From positions 1-22,368 of IMG/VR virus record IMGVR_UViG_3300010354_000739: a stretch of 22,368 bases of DNA; one strand, written 5' to 3'. The notes under the pieces are model-generated. The model did no database searches. It had not been told where the DNA came from and saw only the letters and a list, made by a program, of their open reading frames with translations. This stretch comes from a virus. Position numbers and translations under genes: made by a program. Within the stretch, counting starts at the first letter, position 1; every line of letters starts with the position of its first letter. Shown here piece by piece: positions 3,577-13,129 of the stretch.

Positions 3577-3599
3577 ATACTGCCATTTAGAGTAAATAT

Positions 3600-3696
3600 A
3601 GCTGGTTAGTGTAACCGTTGTAAATGGCGGCTTCCGCATTGGATGAGGTAACACCCGCGATAAGTGGAGATGGAGGTTCAAATCCTCCACCAGCTA
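3600..3696 (+). ncRNA. tRNA-like RNA with acceptor stem and T-arm but no normal anticodon arm
   Basis: A perfect 7-bp acceptor stem is seen (AGCTGGT at 3600-3606 with ACCAGCT at 3689-3695), with A3696 as discriminator. The T-arm is canonical: GGAGG, loop TTCAAAT, CCTCC at 3672-3688. At 97 nt the element is longer than ordinary tRNAs. Inside, 3609-3616 can pair with 3647-3654 (7 of 8 positions). A hairpin at 3623-3640 has stem GCGG/CCGC and a three-base loop. CCGC/GTGG at 3655-3667 could form a variable-arm hairpin. I could not build a standard D-arm plus seven-base anticodon loop, so no amino acid is assigned. An alternative fold pairs 3582-3589 with 3621-3628 and makes a GGTTA/TAACC hairpin. 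It could be a divergent or degenerate tRNA, or a tRNA mimic. No CCA is encoded. Confidence 0.45.
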
Positions 3697-3703
3697 TTAA
3701 TTT

Positions 3704-4079
3704 GGGGAATACATGGAAAGAATCTATAAAGTAAAATTAAACAAGCAAGTATCCCATTGCCTATTAACACGTGGGATTAATAAATTAGTAGGTAACCGAG
3801 TAATTGGCAACAATGACTCAAGCCTTGGATCTATCCAAGATCTTAAGTATGCACTAGCTAACAATTTGTTAGCAAAGCAAGTTGAGGAACTTGTAGCTGC
3901 TTAACGATAGCTAACATCCCAAATCCATGAGCCTACAAGAGGGACTGTACTCTTAAAGGCAAGTATATTATTATTACTATAAAGAATAATATTTTGTTTA
4001 TTTGGAATAAATAAACTAAACTTGTAGAAAACTTAATATTAATTATAGGTTAACGGGGGTTCGAATCCCCCATTCTCCA
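3704..4079 (+). ncRNA. ssrA: Candidate phage tmRNA (transfer-messenger RNA)
   Basis: The tmRNA is a tRNA/mRNA hybrid that frees stalled ribosomes and tags the broken protein. GGGGAAT (3704-3710) pairs with ATTCTCC (4072-4078), with G3.U70 as the one wobble, the identity mark for alanyl-tRNA synthetase; A4079 is the discriminator. The T-arm is GGGGG-TTCGAAT-CCCCC (4055-4071). There is no D-stem, only ten bases (3711-3720). A long interrupted P2 helix follows: 3721-3729 with 4043-4051 (9 bp), 3736-3740 with 4033-4037, and 3741-3745 with 4021-4025. Clear hairpins lie at 3798-3819 (GCAA loop), 3824-3839 and 3931-3960. An in-frame segment ends ELVAA-stop at 3902-3904, with the stop in a hairpin loop (TAGCT/AGCTA) as in E. 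coli helix 5. The resume codon is probably GCA 3851, 11 bases after a hairpin, giving tag ALANNLLAKQVEELVAA; GCT 3857 or GCA 3872 are alternatives. The usual GAUUCGAC block is not found, so it is divergent. Confidence 0.68.
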
Positions 4080-4094
4080 CTAAAACAAATAAAT

Positions 4095-6229: not shown

Positions 6230-7573
6230 ATGCTTATAGTAAATCCATATACTGGACAAACATTGGAAGATCCATGGTATAATAATATTGAACCTTGGCA
6301 AAATGGTTATCTTAAAGTTGAATGTATAATTAGACTAAGAGAAGATGATACTGGTAGAATTAGAGGTATGTATAAACATCCTGGTAATGGTCAGTTTTAT
6401 ACAGTACAAAATGCTGATAGTACAAGTGTATTAATAGTAGTCCCAAAAGAATCTTTTTATTCAACAGTATTTGGTCAATTAAATATTAGACAAGTTACTC
6501 GTGATAATAGAGAAGAAATTAAAATTAAGAACATGGCAAATAAAAATGAATCTTTCATTAGATTAGCTAATAGTATATTTAGCAAATATCCTTATGGTAG
6601 ACCATTAGCACTTACGTCTATTGTAAATAAAATTAAACCAAAAGTGCAAAATAATGAACTTGATAGACCTACTAGAGTAGCTAATTTTGAACCTGAACCT
6701 ATTTTGTTAGATGATGATATATTATATTTATCTGTAGATGAGATTGAAGAAGGATTAGATAATGGAGGTATATATATTGATGATGAAACAGGAGATCATA
6801 GATTAACAGCTAATGATAGATTAGTTATGGTTGGTAATCCTAATGGTGGAAGAATTGGTATGATAAGATTAAGAAGATCTGGTATATCAACTAATGTTTT
6901 TTCTAGACATATTATAGTTAATGGTCATTATTGGCCTATTAAAACATATAATTATCATCCATTAGAAAACTTTAATATACCAGGTTATGCTATTTATGAG
7001 CATGATGGTAATAATTTTAGTAAGGTAATTACTAAGAATTTTGATGATATAGGTATTAACACATTATCACCAACTGAAGAGATTAAAGCTGTTGTTAAAC
7101 ATTGTAAAGTAAAAATCAATAGTATTACTGATTCTGCTACAATATTTGGTAGACAAACAGTTAAGAAAAAGATGATGCTTAATGATAAAAATAATAATGG
7201 TTATGATATAGTTGATATTATACCTGATTATGAGTGTGCAAAGGATGGTACAAAAAGAGATATAGTTATTGTTAAAGGTGACTTAAACTATAAGTTTTCC
7301 CTTAGTGATCTTACTATTGTATTCCCATTTGCTAATACTATACTTAAAGGTATTATACCAATTAAGGATAAAACCTTAAAAGCTGGTGTTAAAGCTAAAA
7401 TCATTAATGATAAGAATCTTAAGATTGGTAAAGGTGAAATAGTGACTGTACTTAATATACATTATAATTATCATCAAAGTAGTAAAACTAGTAATCATAC
7501 TGGTGTAGTTACTGTGGCTGATAAAGGTGGTAATAATTTTAAAGTATGGTCTAACTGCTTAAAAGTAATTTAA
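6230..7573 (+). CDS. Unknown protein heading the ligase cluster, SH3-like C-terminal end
   Basis: This 447-residue protein has no recognised catalytic motif. It reads as mostly beta-rich, with an acidic middle (about residues 160-200, LLDDDILYLSVDEIEEGLDNGG). The C-terminal ~70 residues (AGVKAKIINDKNLKIGKGEIVTVLNI... KVWSNCLKVI) look like a KOW/SH3-like small barrel. Another barrel-like segment is LTANDRLVMVGNPNGGRIGMIRL near residue 190. It starts one base after the polymerase stop and ends with a one-base TAATG overlap on the ATP-grasp gene, so it is most likely co-translated with the ligase cluster. It may bind the substrate or act as a structural partner; this is inference only. Confidence 0.75.
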   Translation: MLIVNPYTGQTLEDPWYNNIEPWQNGYLKVECIIRLREDDTGRIRGMYKHPGNGQFYTVQNADSTSVLIVVPKESFYSTVFGQLNIRQVTRDNREEIKIKNMANKNESFIRLANSIFSKYPYGRPLALTSIVNKIKPKVQNNELDRPTRVANFEPEPILLDDDILYLSVDEIEEGLDNGGIYIDDETGDHRLTANDRLVMVGNPNGGRIGMIRLRRSGISTNVFSRHIIVNGHYWPIKTYNYHPLENFNIPGYAIYEHDGNNFSKVITKNFDDIGINTLSPTEEIKAVVKHCKVKINSITDSATIFGRQTVKKKMMLNDKNNNGYDIVDIIPDYECAKDGTKRDIVIVKGDLNYKFSLSDLTIVFPFANTILKGIIPIKDKTLKAGVKAKIINDKNLKIGKGEIVTVLNIHYNYHQSSKTSNHTGVVTVADKGGNNFKVWSNCLKVI

Positions 7574-8499
7574 TGTTAACAAAGAAAAAACTTAAGAAAA
7601 AGAAGGTAGGTTACCTTGTTGGTGTAAGATCAAGACACCCTAGCCATAAATGGCTTAAACAGAATATAGGTAGATTACCATTTAAGTCTATTGTTAGACT
7701 TGGTAGCACTACTGAGATAGGTGATGAAATATCCAATGGTGGTGATAGGATTGAGTGTAATACAGTAGCATCTGTACTTAATAGTAGTAATAAACTTCTT
7801 ATGAAGAAATGTTTTGATAACTATAGAGTTAGTACTGCTGCATGGTTTACTATTGATCCTGTTACTGCATTACTTAAAGTTAATGATAATAGGGATAATA
7901 CAGTAAGGTATGATGAACTTGAATATCCTGTTGTTGCCAAGTATATATTTGGTAGTAGGAATAGAGGTAATTATTTACTTAAGAATGAGATTGAACTAAT
8001 TGATTTTATTGAGGCTAATATGCACAATATCAATAGTTATATCTTTGAGAAGTATTATTCTTATAATAGGGAGTATAGGATTCATATGGCTATAGTAGGT
8101 AATACACATCATTGTATATATACTTGTCGTAAAGTCTTAAAGAATGATACTCCTGAAGATCAAAGATGGTTTAGAAATGATAGTAATTCAGCATGGTATG
8201 TTGAAGATAATCCTGCATTTGATAAACCTATTAATTGGAATAACATTATCAATGAGTGTGGTATGGCTATGAGGTCATTAGGCCTAGATATAGGTGCTTT
8301 TGATGTTAGAGTACAATCTGCTGGGGATAAAGATGGTAATTTAAGGATAGATCCTAAATATATTATTATTGAGTCTAATAGTGCTGCCAGTCATGGTGAT
8401 ATTACTAGACAAAAATATAAGGATTATATACCTTTAATTTTATTTTGTAAACATAACGATTTAAACAATTTAATTAATGGAATCAACAAAATTAACTAA
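7573..8499 (+). CDS. ATP-grasp ligase
   Basis: This 308-residue protein has the order of ATP-grasp carboxylate-amine ligases. These form an acyl phosphate with ATP and join it to an amine or other nucleophile. The nucleotide-binding strand and glycine-rich loop are YPVVAKYIFGSRNRGNYLL. The hinge region is YIFEKYYSYNREYRIHM, and the Mg-binding end is LGLDIGAFDVRVQ followed by YIIIESNSAAS (Glu and Asn as metal ligands). The fold resembles RimK-like ligases. Its substrate is not evident. The gene overlaps the previous stop by one base and shares 23 bases with the next gene. With the amidoligases and amidotransferases downstream it fits a peptide- or amide-forming pathway. Confidence 0.85.
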   Translation: MLTKKKLKKKKVGYLVGVRSRHPSHKWLKQNIGRLPFKSIVRLGSTTEIGDEISNGGDRIECNTVASVLNSSNKLLMKKCFDNYRVSTAAWFTIDPVTALLKVNDNRDNTVRYDELEYPVVAKYIFGSRNRGNYLLKNEIELIDFIEANMHNINSYIFEKYYSYNREYRIHMAIVGNTHHCIYTCRKVLKNDTPEDQRWFRNDSNSAWYVEDNPAFDKPINWNNIINECGMAMRSLGLDIGAFDVRVQSAGDKDGNLRIDPKYIIIESNSAASHGDITRQKYKDYIPLILFCKHNDLNNLINGINKIN

Positions 8500-9331
8500 A
8501 GTTGCTAGAAAAACTAGCAAACAATGGGAAGAAGAATTTACTCTACAGAAAAAAGAACTTGTTAAGGGTAAATGGGGTATGGAAGGTAAAACTCAATACT
8601 TTCCTGTTAAAAAGCAATATGAATCATTTGCTGAATTACAATATGTAATAGATAATAATTTTGCACCACTTAAACTTGGTAGGGTTGTAGATATGTATAA
8701 TGATCATACATATTTAAAGAGCCCTATTATATATTTAAGAGATGATATAAAAGATCATCATTTTGATACAAATGAATTTTTACAATACTTCTTTACATTG
8801 TATAATCATGAATGTGCTACCTTTAATTCAAAAACTGGTAAACAACAGTGTGATCAAGGTAGACGTAGAAGTTTAATAGATTTATATAGGATATGTAAAT
8901 ATTATTATCCTTTAGTAACTATTAAAGATGTTAAAGAAGCATTGTGGAATCTACCATTTGGTATGCAGGTATTTATATGTCCTGATGTTAGACGTAGGGT
9001 ACATAGAAGAGAAATGCCATCAAATCATCATGGAGCAATAACTTATAATAATGCTGATGAATTTGGTTGGGATTATTATTGTACTAATGTTAAAGATAGT
9101 AAATATTTTAAAATGACTTATAAGGAGCTTGTTCCAATAATAAATAAAACATTGAAAGGTTGTACTCTAAGTCCTATAGGTTATCAAGGTATAGATCCTA
9201 ATGTAGAATGGTATTCTACTAATAATGCAGAAGCTAGAGCTAAAGCTAAACCTGAATTATTAAAACCAATTACTACAAATGTAACACCAGTGCCAGTATT
9301 AGTTGATGATACTAATGAATTACCTTTTTAA
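8477..9331 (+). CDS. Unknown protein with SSB-like C-terminal tip
   Basis: This 284-residue protein overlaps the ATP-grasp gene by 23 bases. No family is recognised. It is rich in His, Tyr and Arg; the middle contains YNHECATFNSKTGKQQCDQGRRRSLIDLY and later FICPDVRRRVHRREMPSNHHGA, basic stretches that could bind nucleic acid. The last eight residues are DDTNELPF after a flexible Pro/Val/Thr-rich linker. This closely resembles the acidic D-D-x-L-P-F tip that bacterial SSB proteins use to recruit partners, and the phage SSB in this window also ends GDLPF. It may therefore be a DNA-binding protein or compete for SSB-binding partners; this is inference. Confidence 0.75.
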   Translation: MESTKLTKVARKTSKQWEEEFTLQKKELVKGKWGMEGKTQYFPVKKQYESFAELQYVIDNNFAPLKLGRVVDMYNDHTYLKSPIIYLRDDIKDHHFDTNEFLQYFFTLYNHECATFNSKTGKQQCDQGRRRSLIDLYRICKYYYPLVTIKDVKEALWNLPFGMQVFICPDVRRRVHRREMPSNHHGAITYNNADEFGWDYYCTNVKDSKYFKMTYKELVPIINKTLKGCTLSPIGYQGIDPNVEWYSTNNAEARAKAKPELLKPITTNVTPVPVLVDDTNELPF

Positions 9332-9343
9332 AAATAAACAATT
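9332..9343 (+). promoter_or_regulatory. A-rich translation initiation element
   Basis: AAATAAACAATT lies directly before the ATG at 9344, almost identical to 10181-10191. It stands in for a Shine-Dalgarno site. Confidence 0.5.
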
Positions 9344-10159
9344 ATGAAAGTAAACAATGTAACATTGGGCGCAGACCCAGAAGTATTTTTATTAAATGCA
9401 GAAGGTAAAGTAGCTCCTGCATATAAATTTATCAAAGGTACTAAAGATAAACCTGAAAGAGTAAGTAAGGATATCAAAGACCTTGCAATCCAATATGATA
9501 ATGTTAGTGCAGAATATTGTATTCCTGCATGTGCTTGTCTTGAAGATTGGCTTAAGTATCATAATTTTATGCTTGATTATATCAGAGAAACTATTGCTGA
9601 ACCTAATGGTTTAGCAGTATATGCTTATCCATCTGTATATATTGAGCCTAAGACTACACGTGATCCTATAGCTATGCAAGCAGGTTGTGATCCTGATTTT
9701 AATGTGTATACACAAGATGCTAATATTAAGCCTGATATTACTGAAACATTACTAAGATCTGCTGGTGGTCATATCCATATAGGTTATGAGAATCCTAATC
9801 CAGATATTAATAATCAGCTTATTATGGCTATGGATTTATTCTTGGGTGTACCTAGTGTACTTATTGACAAGGATGTAGAACGTAAACAGCTTTATGGTAA
9901 AGCAGGTTGTTTCCGTACTAAACATTATGGTGTTGAGTATAGGTCACTTAGTAATTTCTGGCTACAAGATAATGGTCTTATGGCATGGGCTTGGCAAGCT
10001 ACTATGGATGCTATTGAGTTTGTTAATAAGGGTGGTATTATTACTAATCCTGAACAAATAGTAGAGTCAATTAATGACTATAATAAAGACCTAGCTAGAG
10101 AAATACTTGATGATTATGGTATTGTAATACCAGAATATATTACACAATACCAAGATTAA
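9344..10159 (+). CDS. phiEco32-type COOH-NH2 ligase (GS-fold amidoligase)
   Basis: This 271-residue protein belongs to the phage COOH-NH2 ligase type 2 family, predicted to use ATP to join a carboxylate and an amine on a glutamine-synthetase-like fold. The hallmark blocks are LGADPEVFLLNAEGKVAPA at residues 7-25 (acidic metal ligands D11, E13), IQYDNVSAEYCIPA, SAGGHIHIGYENP near residue 140 and the arginine-rich YGKAGCFRTKHYGVEYRSLSNFWL near residue 185. The length is about that of the family. It has its own A-rich start element after a 12-base gap. The glutamine amidotransferase that follows is the likely ammonia source. The substrate is unknown. Confidence 0.87.
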   Translation: MKVNNVTLGADPEVFLLNAEGKVAPAYKFIKGTKDKPERVSKDIKDLAIQYDNVSAEYCIPACACLEDWLKYHNFMLDYIRETIAEPNGLAVYAYPSVYIEPKTTRDPIAMQAGCDPDFNVYTQDANIKPDITETLLRSAGGHIHIGYENPNPDINNQLIMAMDLFLGVPSVLIDKDVERKQLYGKAGCFRTKHYGVEYRSLSNFWLQDNGLMAWAWQATMDAIEFVNKGGIITNPEQIVESINDYNKDLAREILDDYGIVIPEYITQYQD

Positions 10160-10180
10160 TTGGTTCTAGTATAAATAATT

Positions 10181-10191
10181 AAATAAACAAT
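10181..10191 (+). promoter_or_regulatory. A-rich translation initiation element
   Basis: AAATAAACAAT lies directly before the ATG at 10192. It is the third occurrence of this string in front of a gene that does not overlap its upstream neighbour. Confidence 0.5.
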
Positions 10192-11724
10192 ATGTGTGGA
10201 ATACAAGCTTTTGTTGGTAAAAAGAACAAACAAGTAGATTTAAACAAATTTAAGAAACTAATGCTATGGAATGCATTAGGTAGAGGTCAAGAGGCAACAG
10301 GTATATTCTCACCAAAGAATGGTTTAGTTAAGGATAATGATAGATGTGATGTATTCTTAGGTAAGAATGAAATTAAATCTGATACCTTACTTATAGGTCA
10401 TGTTAGGGCATCTACATATGGTGGTAACACTAAAGATAATGCTCATCCATTCAATGAGGGTAATATAACATTAGTGCATAATGGTACATTAACTAATCCT
10501 TGGCCATGGGCTAGACATCATGGTATAGATGTTACTAAGGTTAATGTTGATAGTCATGTAATATGTCATGTCTTAAATAAAACCCAGGATTTTAATGTAT
10601 TAGGTGAAATCAATGGTGCTGCAGCATTAGTTATGCATGATAGTAATATACCTAATAGGTTATATGTATATAGGAATAAAGATCGTGAGTTATTTCATGG
10701 TAAAACTTCTTATGGTATGTATGTATCATCAATAAAAGCTAGTTTAGAGTCAATAGGTTGTGTTGATATAGCAGAGTTCCCAGTTGGGACTCTGCACATT
10801 ATTGAAAATGGTGAAATTAAATCTACTAAAGAGATTGAGAGTAAACCATATCAAACACCAGCTTATACTAATAGTACTACTAGTACCACTAATCCTAATC
10901 AACATACACCAACTAGCCTTGTTGGTAGATGGTTATATTGTGATTCTAGTGCAGCTGTTAATTGTGATGAAGGTACAAATATAACTTATGGTAATTTCTA
11001 TAAATGTGTTGGAGTAACTAATGAAATAGTTGCTGATAACTATATGGTTAGTCCTAGGAATTATATTTATATCATTGATAATGACAATGTTAGACGTAAA
11101 GTAGATTATTGGTATTTTGATAATTACTGCTCTAGACTTGATGATGGAGATTATGTATTTATTACAAATGATTTATTTTATAGTGAAAAAGTTGATGGTA
11201 AAGAAGAAAAGAAGTTAGTTCTTAAAAAAGATCAGATAGTACTTGTTATTAATTCTATAGAAAAAGATGGTAAATTTAGTATACATGATGGTGAAAATGA
11301 GTGGCAAGTACCTAAGAATTCTATTAGGAAACTTACTTATAATGATGAATGGGTAGATAATAATCATGTTATTATAGCTAATCTTGAACTTAACTATACT
11401 AAGAATAAAGATAAGAAACCTGAGACTAAAACTAATAATAAGGAAGAAGATAAGGATGAGGATGATAATACTGATAATTATTTTCATGTAGATGCTGAGA
11501 TATTAATACAAAATGATTTTTCTTATCTTAGAGAACAATTAGATGAAATAATTAGTAATTATTATTCTGTACCTTCTGTTAAAATACTAGATAATGTTAG
11601 AGAGTTATTAGCTCATGTTGAGAATTGTATAGATGAATATACAGAAATAGCTTTAGAACAAGGTGTAGTATTATATGAAGTTGATATGAAAGAAAATAGT
11701 AAACAAGAAAAAATATTAGATTAA
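10192..11724 (+). CDS. Class II glutamine amidotransferase, copy 1
   Basis: This 510-residue protein begins MCGIQAFVG. Removal of Met exposes Cys2 as the N-terminal nucleophile of an Ntn-type glutaminase that frees ammonia from glutamine. The supporting motifs are GRGQEATGIFS, GHVRASTYGG-x-DNAHPF, LVHNGTLTNPW and DSHVICHVL, in the usual order over residues 1-135. The remaining ~300 residues are not a known synthase domain: a Thr/Asn/Ser-rich linker near residue 225, a beta-rich section (GRWLYCDSSAA... YIYIIDNDNVRRKVDYWYFDN), a highly charged Lys/Glu/Asp linker near 410-430 and a final helical part. It lies between two amidoligase genes, so it probably feeds ammonia to one or both. Confidence 0.88.
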   Translation: MCGIQAFVGKKNKQVDLNKFKKLMLWNALGRGQEATGIFSPKNGLVKDNDRCDVFLGKNEIKSDTLLIGHVRASTYGGNTKDNAHPFNEGNITLVHNGTLTNPWPWARHHGIDVTKVNVDSHVICHVLNKTQDFNVLGEINGAAALVMHDSNIPNRLYVYRNKDRELFHGKTSYGMYVSSIKASLESIGCVDIAEFPVGTLHIIENGEIKSTKEIESKPYQTPAYTNSTTSTTNPNQHTPTSLVGRWLYCDSSAAVNCDEGTNITYGNFYKCVGVTNEIVADNYMVSPRNYIYIIDNDNVRRKVDYWYFDNYCSRLDDGDYVFITNDLFYSEKVDGKEEKKLVLKKDQIVLVINSIEKDGKFSIHDGENEWQVPKNSIRKLTYNDEWVDNNHVIIANLELNYTKNKDKKPETKTNNKEEDKDEDDNTDNYFHVDAEILIQNDFSYLREQLDEIISNYYSVPSVKILDNVRELLAHVENCIDEYTEIALEQGVVLYEVDMKENSKQEKILD

Positions 11725-11725
11725 T

Positions 11726-13129
11726 ATGAAAGAAATAAAAGATATATTTGGTGTTGTTACTAGTGATTATGTTACTATAGGTAAATATAAAATTGATAAA
11801 AACAATCCTGATCTTAGTCTTGATTATTTTAATAAGAATGTTTATTGTCATCCTGATTTTTCTGCTGCTATATTTTGTGAGTTTGATGAAATGGGTAATC
11901 TTAAGGGAGATGGTAAAAAAGTGTATACTAATGAAAAACATTTTTATGATTATTTTCCTCAAATTTTTTGTCAAAGAATATATAAAAATGGTCAAATGGA
12001 ATTATGTCATGTTGGTATACCATTTGAGTTTATTCCTATGGAACTGTTTAAAGAATGTATTTATGATGGTATTTATTATCATAAAGATCTTATATCAACA
12101 GCACCTAAAAAACACTTAAGATATAGACAGATAAATGCTATTAAAAAATTACATGATTGTAATAGTATTAAGGATGAACTTAAATATGGTATTAAATCTA
12201 GTACTTATTTACTTACTGAAGGTAAAAGATATACTTTTGGTGCAGAGATAGAAACTAGTAATGGTTTATTACCATATTATCTTGATAAAGACCTTAATTA
12301 TGAGGCTGTTCATGATGGTAGTCTTAGGGATGAGAATGGCAATGTTAATGGTGGTGAGTATGTTACTGGTGTACTAATAGGTGATAGTGGCTTTTTACAG
12401 CTTAAAAGGCTTTGTAATGAGCTTAATAAGCGTTGTCTTGTTAATTCTAAGTGTGGTGTTCATGTTCATATAGGTGGTGTAAACTTTAATAAAGAGTTTA
12501 TTGTACATTTATATAAATTATGTCAAGACATTGAAGAAGAACTATTTGCTATGTTACCTGTTAGTCGTAGGAATAATGAGTATTGTAAACCACTCAAAAA
12601 GTTTAATTTTAAAACTCTTAAAACTAAGGATCGTTTAGATTATCAAATGGCTATAGATGCTATATATTCAGATTTATTTTGTTATATAGCTCATTCTCAG
12701 CAAGCTGATCCAGCTAGGTCTAATAAAAAGACCCAACATCCATTAGGTAATAAGTGTGGTTACAATCATTCTACTGCTAGATATTGCTGGCTTAACCTAG
12801 TACCAGCTATGTTTGATACTAGGGGTAATGGTAAATATACTGTAGAAATTAGGAATCATAGTGGTACTACATCTTATACTAAGATTAAGAACTGGATACT
12901 AATTACTATGGGTATTATGTCATTTGCTGAAAATGAACAAGAATTTATTAGGTATAACAAAGTATGTTTATCCGATGTAATACAAGCAGCTTTTCCTAAA
13001 AAAGCATTATTACTTATGAAGTATATACATGAAAGAACAAATAAGTTTACTGTAAATTCTGTTGATCAAGAATATATGGATTATACAGAGAGTGAAGTTA
13101 GTAGTCAATTAACATTAACAACAATATAA
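11726..13129 (+). CDS. Amidoligase (Amidoligase_2 family, GS-like fold)
   Basis: This 467-residue protein starts one base after the previous stop. The core begins near residue 165 with YTFGAEIETSNG (metal-binding glutamates), followed by AVHDGSLRDENGNVNGGEYVTGVL, CGVHVHIGGVNFN and, near 370, YCWLNLVPAMFDTRGNGKYTVEIRNHSGT. This set of G-x-E-x-E, D-x-S, GEYV, H-x-H-I-G and E-x-R-x-H motifs is that of Amidoligase_2, predicted ATP-dependent ligases of carboxylates and amines. The ~160-residue N-terminal part (YVTIGKYKIDKNNPDLSLD...) is unassigned. This family differs from the COOH-NH2 ligase two genes upstream, so the cluster carries two distinct GS-fold ligases. The substrate is unknown. Confidence 0.85.
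   Translation: MKEIKDIFGVVTSDYVTIGKYKIDKNNPDLSLDYFNKNVYCHPDFSAAIFCEFDEMGNLKGDGKKVYTNEKHFYDYFPQIFCQRIYKNGQMELCHVGIPFEFIPMELFKECIYDGIYYHKDLISTAPKKHLRYRQINAIKKLHDCNSIKDELKYGIKSSTYLLTEGKRYTFGAEIETSNGLLPYYLDKDLNYEAVHDGSLRDENGNVNGGEYVTGVLIGDSGFLQLKRLCNELNKRCLVNSKCGVHVHIGGVNFNKEFIVHLYKLCQDIEEELFAMLPVSRRNNEYCKPLKKFNFKTLKTKDRLDYQMAIDAIYSDLFCYIAHSQQADPARSNKKTQHPLGNKCGYNHSTARYCWLNLVPAMFDTRGNGKYTVEIRNHSGTTSYTKIKNWILITMGIMSFAENEQEFIRYNKVCLSDVIQAAFPKKALLLMKYIHERTNKFTVNSVDQEYMDYTESEVSSQLTLTTI

Follow-up and report, generated by a model that had tools for sequence, protein, structure and literature searches.

A divergent one-piece tmRNA gene in a phage lineage with long, conserved tag peptides

Introduction

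What does a phage encode in a short segment that ends like a tRNA, yet encloses an open reading frame? This question is raised by positions 3704 to 4079 of a viral DNA stretch of 22,368 nucleotides, a 22-kb linear fragment in IMG/VR, which we analysed as a whole and call the window. A preliminary description, made from the sequence alone, had read the segment as a divergent phage tmRNA. In trans-translation, tmRNA is alanylated, enters the ribosome in an SmpB-dependent manner and adds a tag to the nascent chain, followed by release and proteolysis. Phage tmRNAs are known from the mycobacteriophages Bxz1 and Wildcat, Bacillus phage G, the methylophage Melnitz and huge phages (PMC4131195, PMC9004378, PMC7162821, PMC11915505), and SmpB was reported from huge phages too (PMC7162821). 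A tmRNA database of 2025 holds only 79 unique bacteriophage sequences (PMC11915505).

Results

Detection of the tmRNA gene

The segment very probably is a functional phage-encoded one-piece tmRNA, which is our best explanation of it. ARAGORN reports 3704-4080 as a tmRNA with the tag GNNDSSLGSIQDLKYALANNLLAKQVEELVAA, and the gene (ssrA, one-piece form, 3704-4079, + strand as for all window features below) is further backed by an Rfam match and by covariation in 14 relatives. The preliminary reading holds in its essentials, as an alanine-type acceptor, P2 and the ELVAA tag end are all present and a D-stem is missing. The Rfam model RF00023 matches the 3' tmRNA domain with 33.6 bits (E 8e-12 in a small search), which lies below its gathering score of 47 bits, a search threshold rather than a biological feature. 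For comparison, two chromosomal tmRNAs of Bacteroidota reach 139 and 123 bits, and several relatives of the same lineage (designated by L numbers) also pass (L129 76, L169 56 and L183 54 bits). We did not use the RF00023 structure, because its alignment misplaces the 5' half of the window tmRNA (from 3857 on).

The expectation that standard searches could miss this gene was only partly right, because ARAGORN calls it; the Rfam score, however, is below gathering, and default ARAGORN gives no tmRNA call for nine relatives (L167, L168, L170, L181, L182, L183, L184, L189, L198). In four others (L095, L123, L185, L191), ARAGORN misplaces the tag start. The lineage shows that tmRNA genes of large phages are under-annotated, many being overlooked or wrongly read by ARAGORN and Rfam.

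The tRNA-like domain

The acceptor P1 is formed by GGGGAAT (3704-3710) and ATTCTCC (4072-4078), followed by the discriminator A at 4079, as read directly from the sequence; CCA is not encoded. All seven pairs form, in the window and in 14/14 aligned relatives, and the proposed G3.U70 wobble is invariant in these 14 and, as the third acceptor pair, in all 18 relatives listed, while pairs 4-7 change compensatorily. The T-arm GGGGG-TTCGAAT-CCCCC was confirmed at 4055-4071, with two-sided changes at four of the five T-stem pairs. One lineage member, whose tmRNA is otherwise intact, has an odd T-arm loop (L168:1700-1738, GGGAT-TCTCGGAT-ATCCC).

The window tmRNA has no anticodon arm and, as claimed before, no D-stem. 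These absences bear on a tRNA gene split by an intron, a reading for which the tRNA-like ends speak, as do the group I introns of two relatives. The interior, however, consists of a pseudoknot (PK1), a conserved tag frame and a tmRNA 3' element, the relatives' introns sit within the tmRNA T-loop itself, and the window gives no match to the group I intron model RF00028, so that we give an intron-containing tRNA next to no probability.

In the D-loop-like region (3711-3722), GG is retained and the UUCGAC block is lost, and the absence of GGATTCGAC from the window tmRNA had been noted correctly. Across the lineage, this region grades from GGCTTCGACGG in L185 and L191 to GGAAAGA in the window and L129; most members keep the GG as the UUCGAC block decays. 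The GG-UUCGAC block is a common, not a strictly required tmRNA feature, and we did not treat UUCGAC as necessary for membership, because within one lineage it is still present in L185 and L191. Without it, the window tmRNA may make weaker SmpB or elbow contacts.

The predicted P2 helix (3721-3729 with 4043-4051) is present, its duplex outperforming 195 of 200 shuffles. P2 proper is likewise supported in many relatives, and in some it is no better than shuffles. Distal P2, CAAG (3746-3749) paired with CTTG (4021-4024), is invariant in 14/14 members. The conserved 3' element ACTAAACTTGTAGA (4015-4028) was placed by the RF00023 alignment and occurs together with a T-arm in at least about 18 viral tmRNAs.

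Pseudoknot, resume codon and stop hairpin

PK1 (3751-3795) lies upstream of the resume codon and consists of crossing, covarying stems (3751-3756/3772-3777 and 3757-3767/3785-3795); among the 14 relatives, five pairs of the first stem change on both sides, and the second stem is 92% paired. The following spacer (3796-3805) carries U-5 A-4 A U U, the element that sets the resume codon, recognized from the relatives and from the A86 rule of E. coli tmRNA, in which the reading frame is set chiefly by the A at -4 (PMC2481249). Most of the lineage has this UA-R-N-Y element, and U-5 A-4 is retained in nearly all 18 relatives listed, the exceptions being L183 (C-5 A-4) and L100 (irregular 5' region). 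The layout in nearly all members is the second PK1 stem, the U-A-R-N-Y element within about 8-12 bases, and then GGC, GGA, GTA or GAC, so that the resume codons encode Gly, Val or Asp.

PK1 and the UA(-5,-4) element therefore put the window's resume codon at GGC 3806, ten bases after PK1. GCA 3851, which had been proposed on the basis of a preceding hairpin, is not upheld: it has no A at -4 and lies well inside the conserved tag. GCA 3872 was rejected too, because it likewise lies well inside the tag.

The stop codon lies in the loop of a helix-5-like hairpin (3894-3913, arms TAGCT 3894-3898 and AGCTA 3909-3913), as the preliminary description had stated and as read from this single sequence. 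Complementarity suggests a possible second pseudoknot at 3917-3960 (3917-3920/3941-3944 and 3931-3934/3957-3960); the number of pseudoknots pk2-pk4 varies among tmRNAs.

The tag peptide

The tag frame (3806-3904) runs for 32 codons from GGC 3806 to the UAA at 3902 and is supported by ARAGORN, by homologous tags and by dN/dS. The ELVAA-TAA end that had been described for the frame 3713-3904 is indeed there, with a second in-frame stop, TAG, at 3908; start and length had to be revised, as the tag begins at GGC 3806 and not at GCA 3851. Like the tags of bacterial tmRNAs it ends in a hydrophobic tail, but two Bacteroidota controls have tags of only 9 codons (GEENYALAA, GEESYAMAA). Homologous tags in relatives comprise 25-42 residues, and 8 of 18 tags are longer than the quoted range of 8-35 (PMC8012679).

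The tags fall into families: GNNDSSLGxIxDLKxALANN (window, L169, L170, L189), GNxITNEVGxxAD (L095, L123, L167, L100, L185, L191), xEDMMSIPTxIT (L129, L183, L198) and two smaller ones. Pairwise dN/dS values point to purifying selection on the tag, with 0.23 for the window and L169 and 0.32 for the window and L170, in the expected direction although based on small numbers in about 32 codons; some other pairs are under less constraint, the maximum of 0.85 being found between two almost identical sequences. A peptide search did not find the tag in the phage collection.

Conservation of the peptide is also what a short protein gene beside a tRNA-like remnant would offer, and in the window 63 codons are indeed open from ATG 3713 to TAA 3904, of which codons 32-63 are peptide-conserved. 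Upstream of GGC 3806, however, the frame is interrupted by stops in L169, L170, L189, L129 and L183, and conservation there is structural; because relatives carry these stops, a 63-codon protein is refuted. Nor does the frame belong to a Pfam or PHROG family. Instead of a frame conserved as protein with P1 pairing lost, the opposite is seen, as P1, PK1 and T pairing are kept by compensatory change. We consider the protein gene extremely improbable.

The coding part also speaks to a tmRNA-like decoy that would bind SmpB or the ribosome without productive tagging and thereby inhibit host trans-translation. Mycobacteriophage DS6A has a form with the tRNA-like domain only, and a similar molecule inhibits tmRNA (PMC4131195). 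A decoy would, however, need neither a resume element nor a reading frame with its stop codon and tag end, all of which are conserved here, and we regard it as highly improbable.

Covariation across the lineage

The alignment of 14 lineage members covered the acceptor, distal P2, both PK1 stems and the T-stem. In these regions 95.5% of cells are paired, compared with 38-51% when the partners are slid, percentages that are favoured by the derivation of the structure in part from the same 14 sequences. The covariation score is 0.410 versus 0.111 in shuffled alignments, with none of 500 shuffles as high, and 14 pairs show two-sided changes. This shared derivation does not account for the two-sided changes seen in the acceptor, in the first stem of PK1 and in the T-stem. 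That all elements are kept across independent phage contigs, with compensatory changes, places the original observation far beyond chance. By comparison among relatives, gene identity, fold, resume codon and frame can thus be taken as established.

Such compensatory change in intact helices, together with purifying selection on the tag, speaks against a decaying tmRNA, be it a copy of a host gene or the scar of an integration site, even though the UUCGAC block has decayed and tmRNA genes are common integration sites (PMC11915505). The PK1 signature is, moreover, found in no cellular tmRNA scanned, and the gene is placed between other genes of the window, just upstream of a polymerase. We assign little probability to decay and retain the functional tmRNA as our reading.

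A lineage apparently confined to phages

Relatives were first sought by their 3' element ACTAAACTTGTAGA, with the T-arm as a filter; most matches to the loose motif are chance, and those with a T-arm were retained, which gave at least about 18 viral tmRNAs among the matches listed. From these, a PK1 signature was drawn up by eye. Its loose form matches 21 viral contigs, every time inside a lineage tmRNA (that of L188 is cut by the contig end), and six places in cellular genomes that represent about 85,000 species of bacteria and archaea, none of them in a tmRNA; the strict form has no match in these cellular genomes. Because the signature matches no scanned cellular tmRNA, the lineage appears to be restricted to phages as far as PK1 can tell. 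A BLAST search with the region gave no hit among phages; in 50,697 phage records, the window tmRNA has no DNA match apart from a weak PK1 match in a 735-kb huge phage (two records), and the record LR756501.1 of that size contains a distant lineage member.

Group I introns, which are known from the T-loop of other tmRNA genes, interrupt the T-loop of the tmRNA in L167 (2295-2552) and L198 (2317-2548), with RF00028 scores of 78 and 96 bits, respectively; one of the two is the huge phage LR756501.1 (735 kb). The window copy is intron-free, and so is L170, whose 3' flank is near-identical to that of L167. The L167 insertion of about 750 bp includes, on the other strand, a gene for an HNH endonuclease and exceeds the reported maximum of 700 bp (PMC11915505).

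The three largest members, of 270, 508 and 735 kb, each have a full-length SmpB gene, at LR756501.1:199506-199931 (L199), G001:248299-248718 (L172) and G017:177791-178204 (L200). We found none in the window, a 22-kb fragment, or in the smaller, mostly partial lineage records. As SmpB was found only in the three largest members, the smaller phages probably use that of their host. For the window phage this host is likely a member of the Bacteroidota, because the best matches of its helicase are phages of Bacteroidota, including crAss-like phages.

Discussion

The window tmRNA shares with bacterial one-piece tmRNAs (ssrA, RF00023), including those of Bacteroidota, the G3.U70 acceptor, T-arm, P2, PK1, the UA-R-N-Y element, a Gly resume codon, a small hydrophobic tag end and the 3' element ACTAA-x-C-x-TGTAGA. 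It differs from them in the lost UUCGAC and in its RF00023 score (33.6 versus 123-139 bits). The tmRNA of Melnitz is two-piece, whereas that of the window lineage is one-piece and has a PK1 signature and conserved tag families of its own. We consider as new the apparently phage-restricted lineage, its long conserved tags, the decay of its GG-UUCGAC block, the SmpB genes of the three largest members and the T-loop group I introns in two members, although a tmRNA database of 97,179 sequences may already include members.

As judged from conservation, every step encoded in the RNA itself is supported; its expression and charging, the use of SmpB, tagging, degradation and an advantage for the phage we infer from established knowledge of trans-translation. 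The tRNA-like domain of the transcript would be charged by the host alanyl-tRNA synthetase, which recognizes G3.U70, and the charged tmRNA with SmpB, presumably the host's for the window phage, would enter ribosomes stalled on broken mRNA. It would donate its alanine and shift the ribosome to GGC 3806 as resume codon, whereupon A-GNNDSSLGSIQDLKYALANNLLAKQVEELVAA would be added to the nascent chain, ending at UAA 3902. Ribosomes could thereby be freed during infection, and the nascent chain marked for host proteases by its hydrophobic -VAA end. The salvage of stalled ribosomes that had been suggested for this RNA is thus plausible, and its benefit would most simply be ribosome recovery while mRNAs are cut in infection.

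The long conserved tags might, beyond serving as a degradation signal, have a phage-specific function that sets trans-translation driven by the phage apart from that of the host; they could, for example, bind an adaptor of phage or host, or influence what becomes of the tagged protein. We regard this as a tentative and rather unlikely idea. Peptide conservation of the tags across distant phages makes it testable whether these phages run trans-translation for a purpose of their own or top up the ribosome rescue of their hosts.

Genomic surroundings

A related B-family DNA polymerase lies just downstream of the tmRNA, and on its strand, both in the window and in five related contigs, in the latter at a distance of about 1-2.5 kb. 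The gene is sporadic among polymerase relatives, because the 45 first found gave no tmRNA call in the DNA examined. Around the window tmRNA we identified no terminator and no convincing promoter, and the amidoligase and an 85-aa ORF, used as scan queries, found no relatives. The window also encodes a spore photoproduct lyase-like radical SAM protein (1995-2855; PF20903, 87 bits), which is unmatched in the phage collection, and, at 7573-13129, clustered genes for ATP-grasp, class II glutamine amidotransferase and amidoligase-like proteins. Directly upstream of the tmRNA (3598-3697) lies a tRNA-like RNA (RF00005 33 bits, fold z -4.4), which ARAGORN does not call and which has a D-arm insertion of about 35 nt and a 5-nt loop in the place of the anticodon loop.
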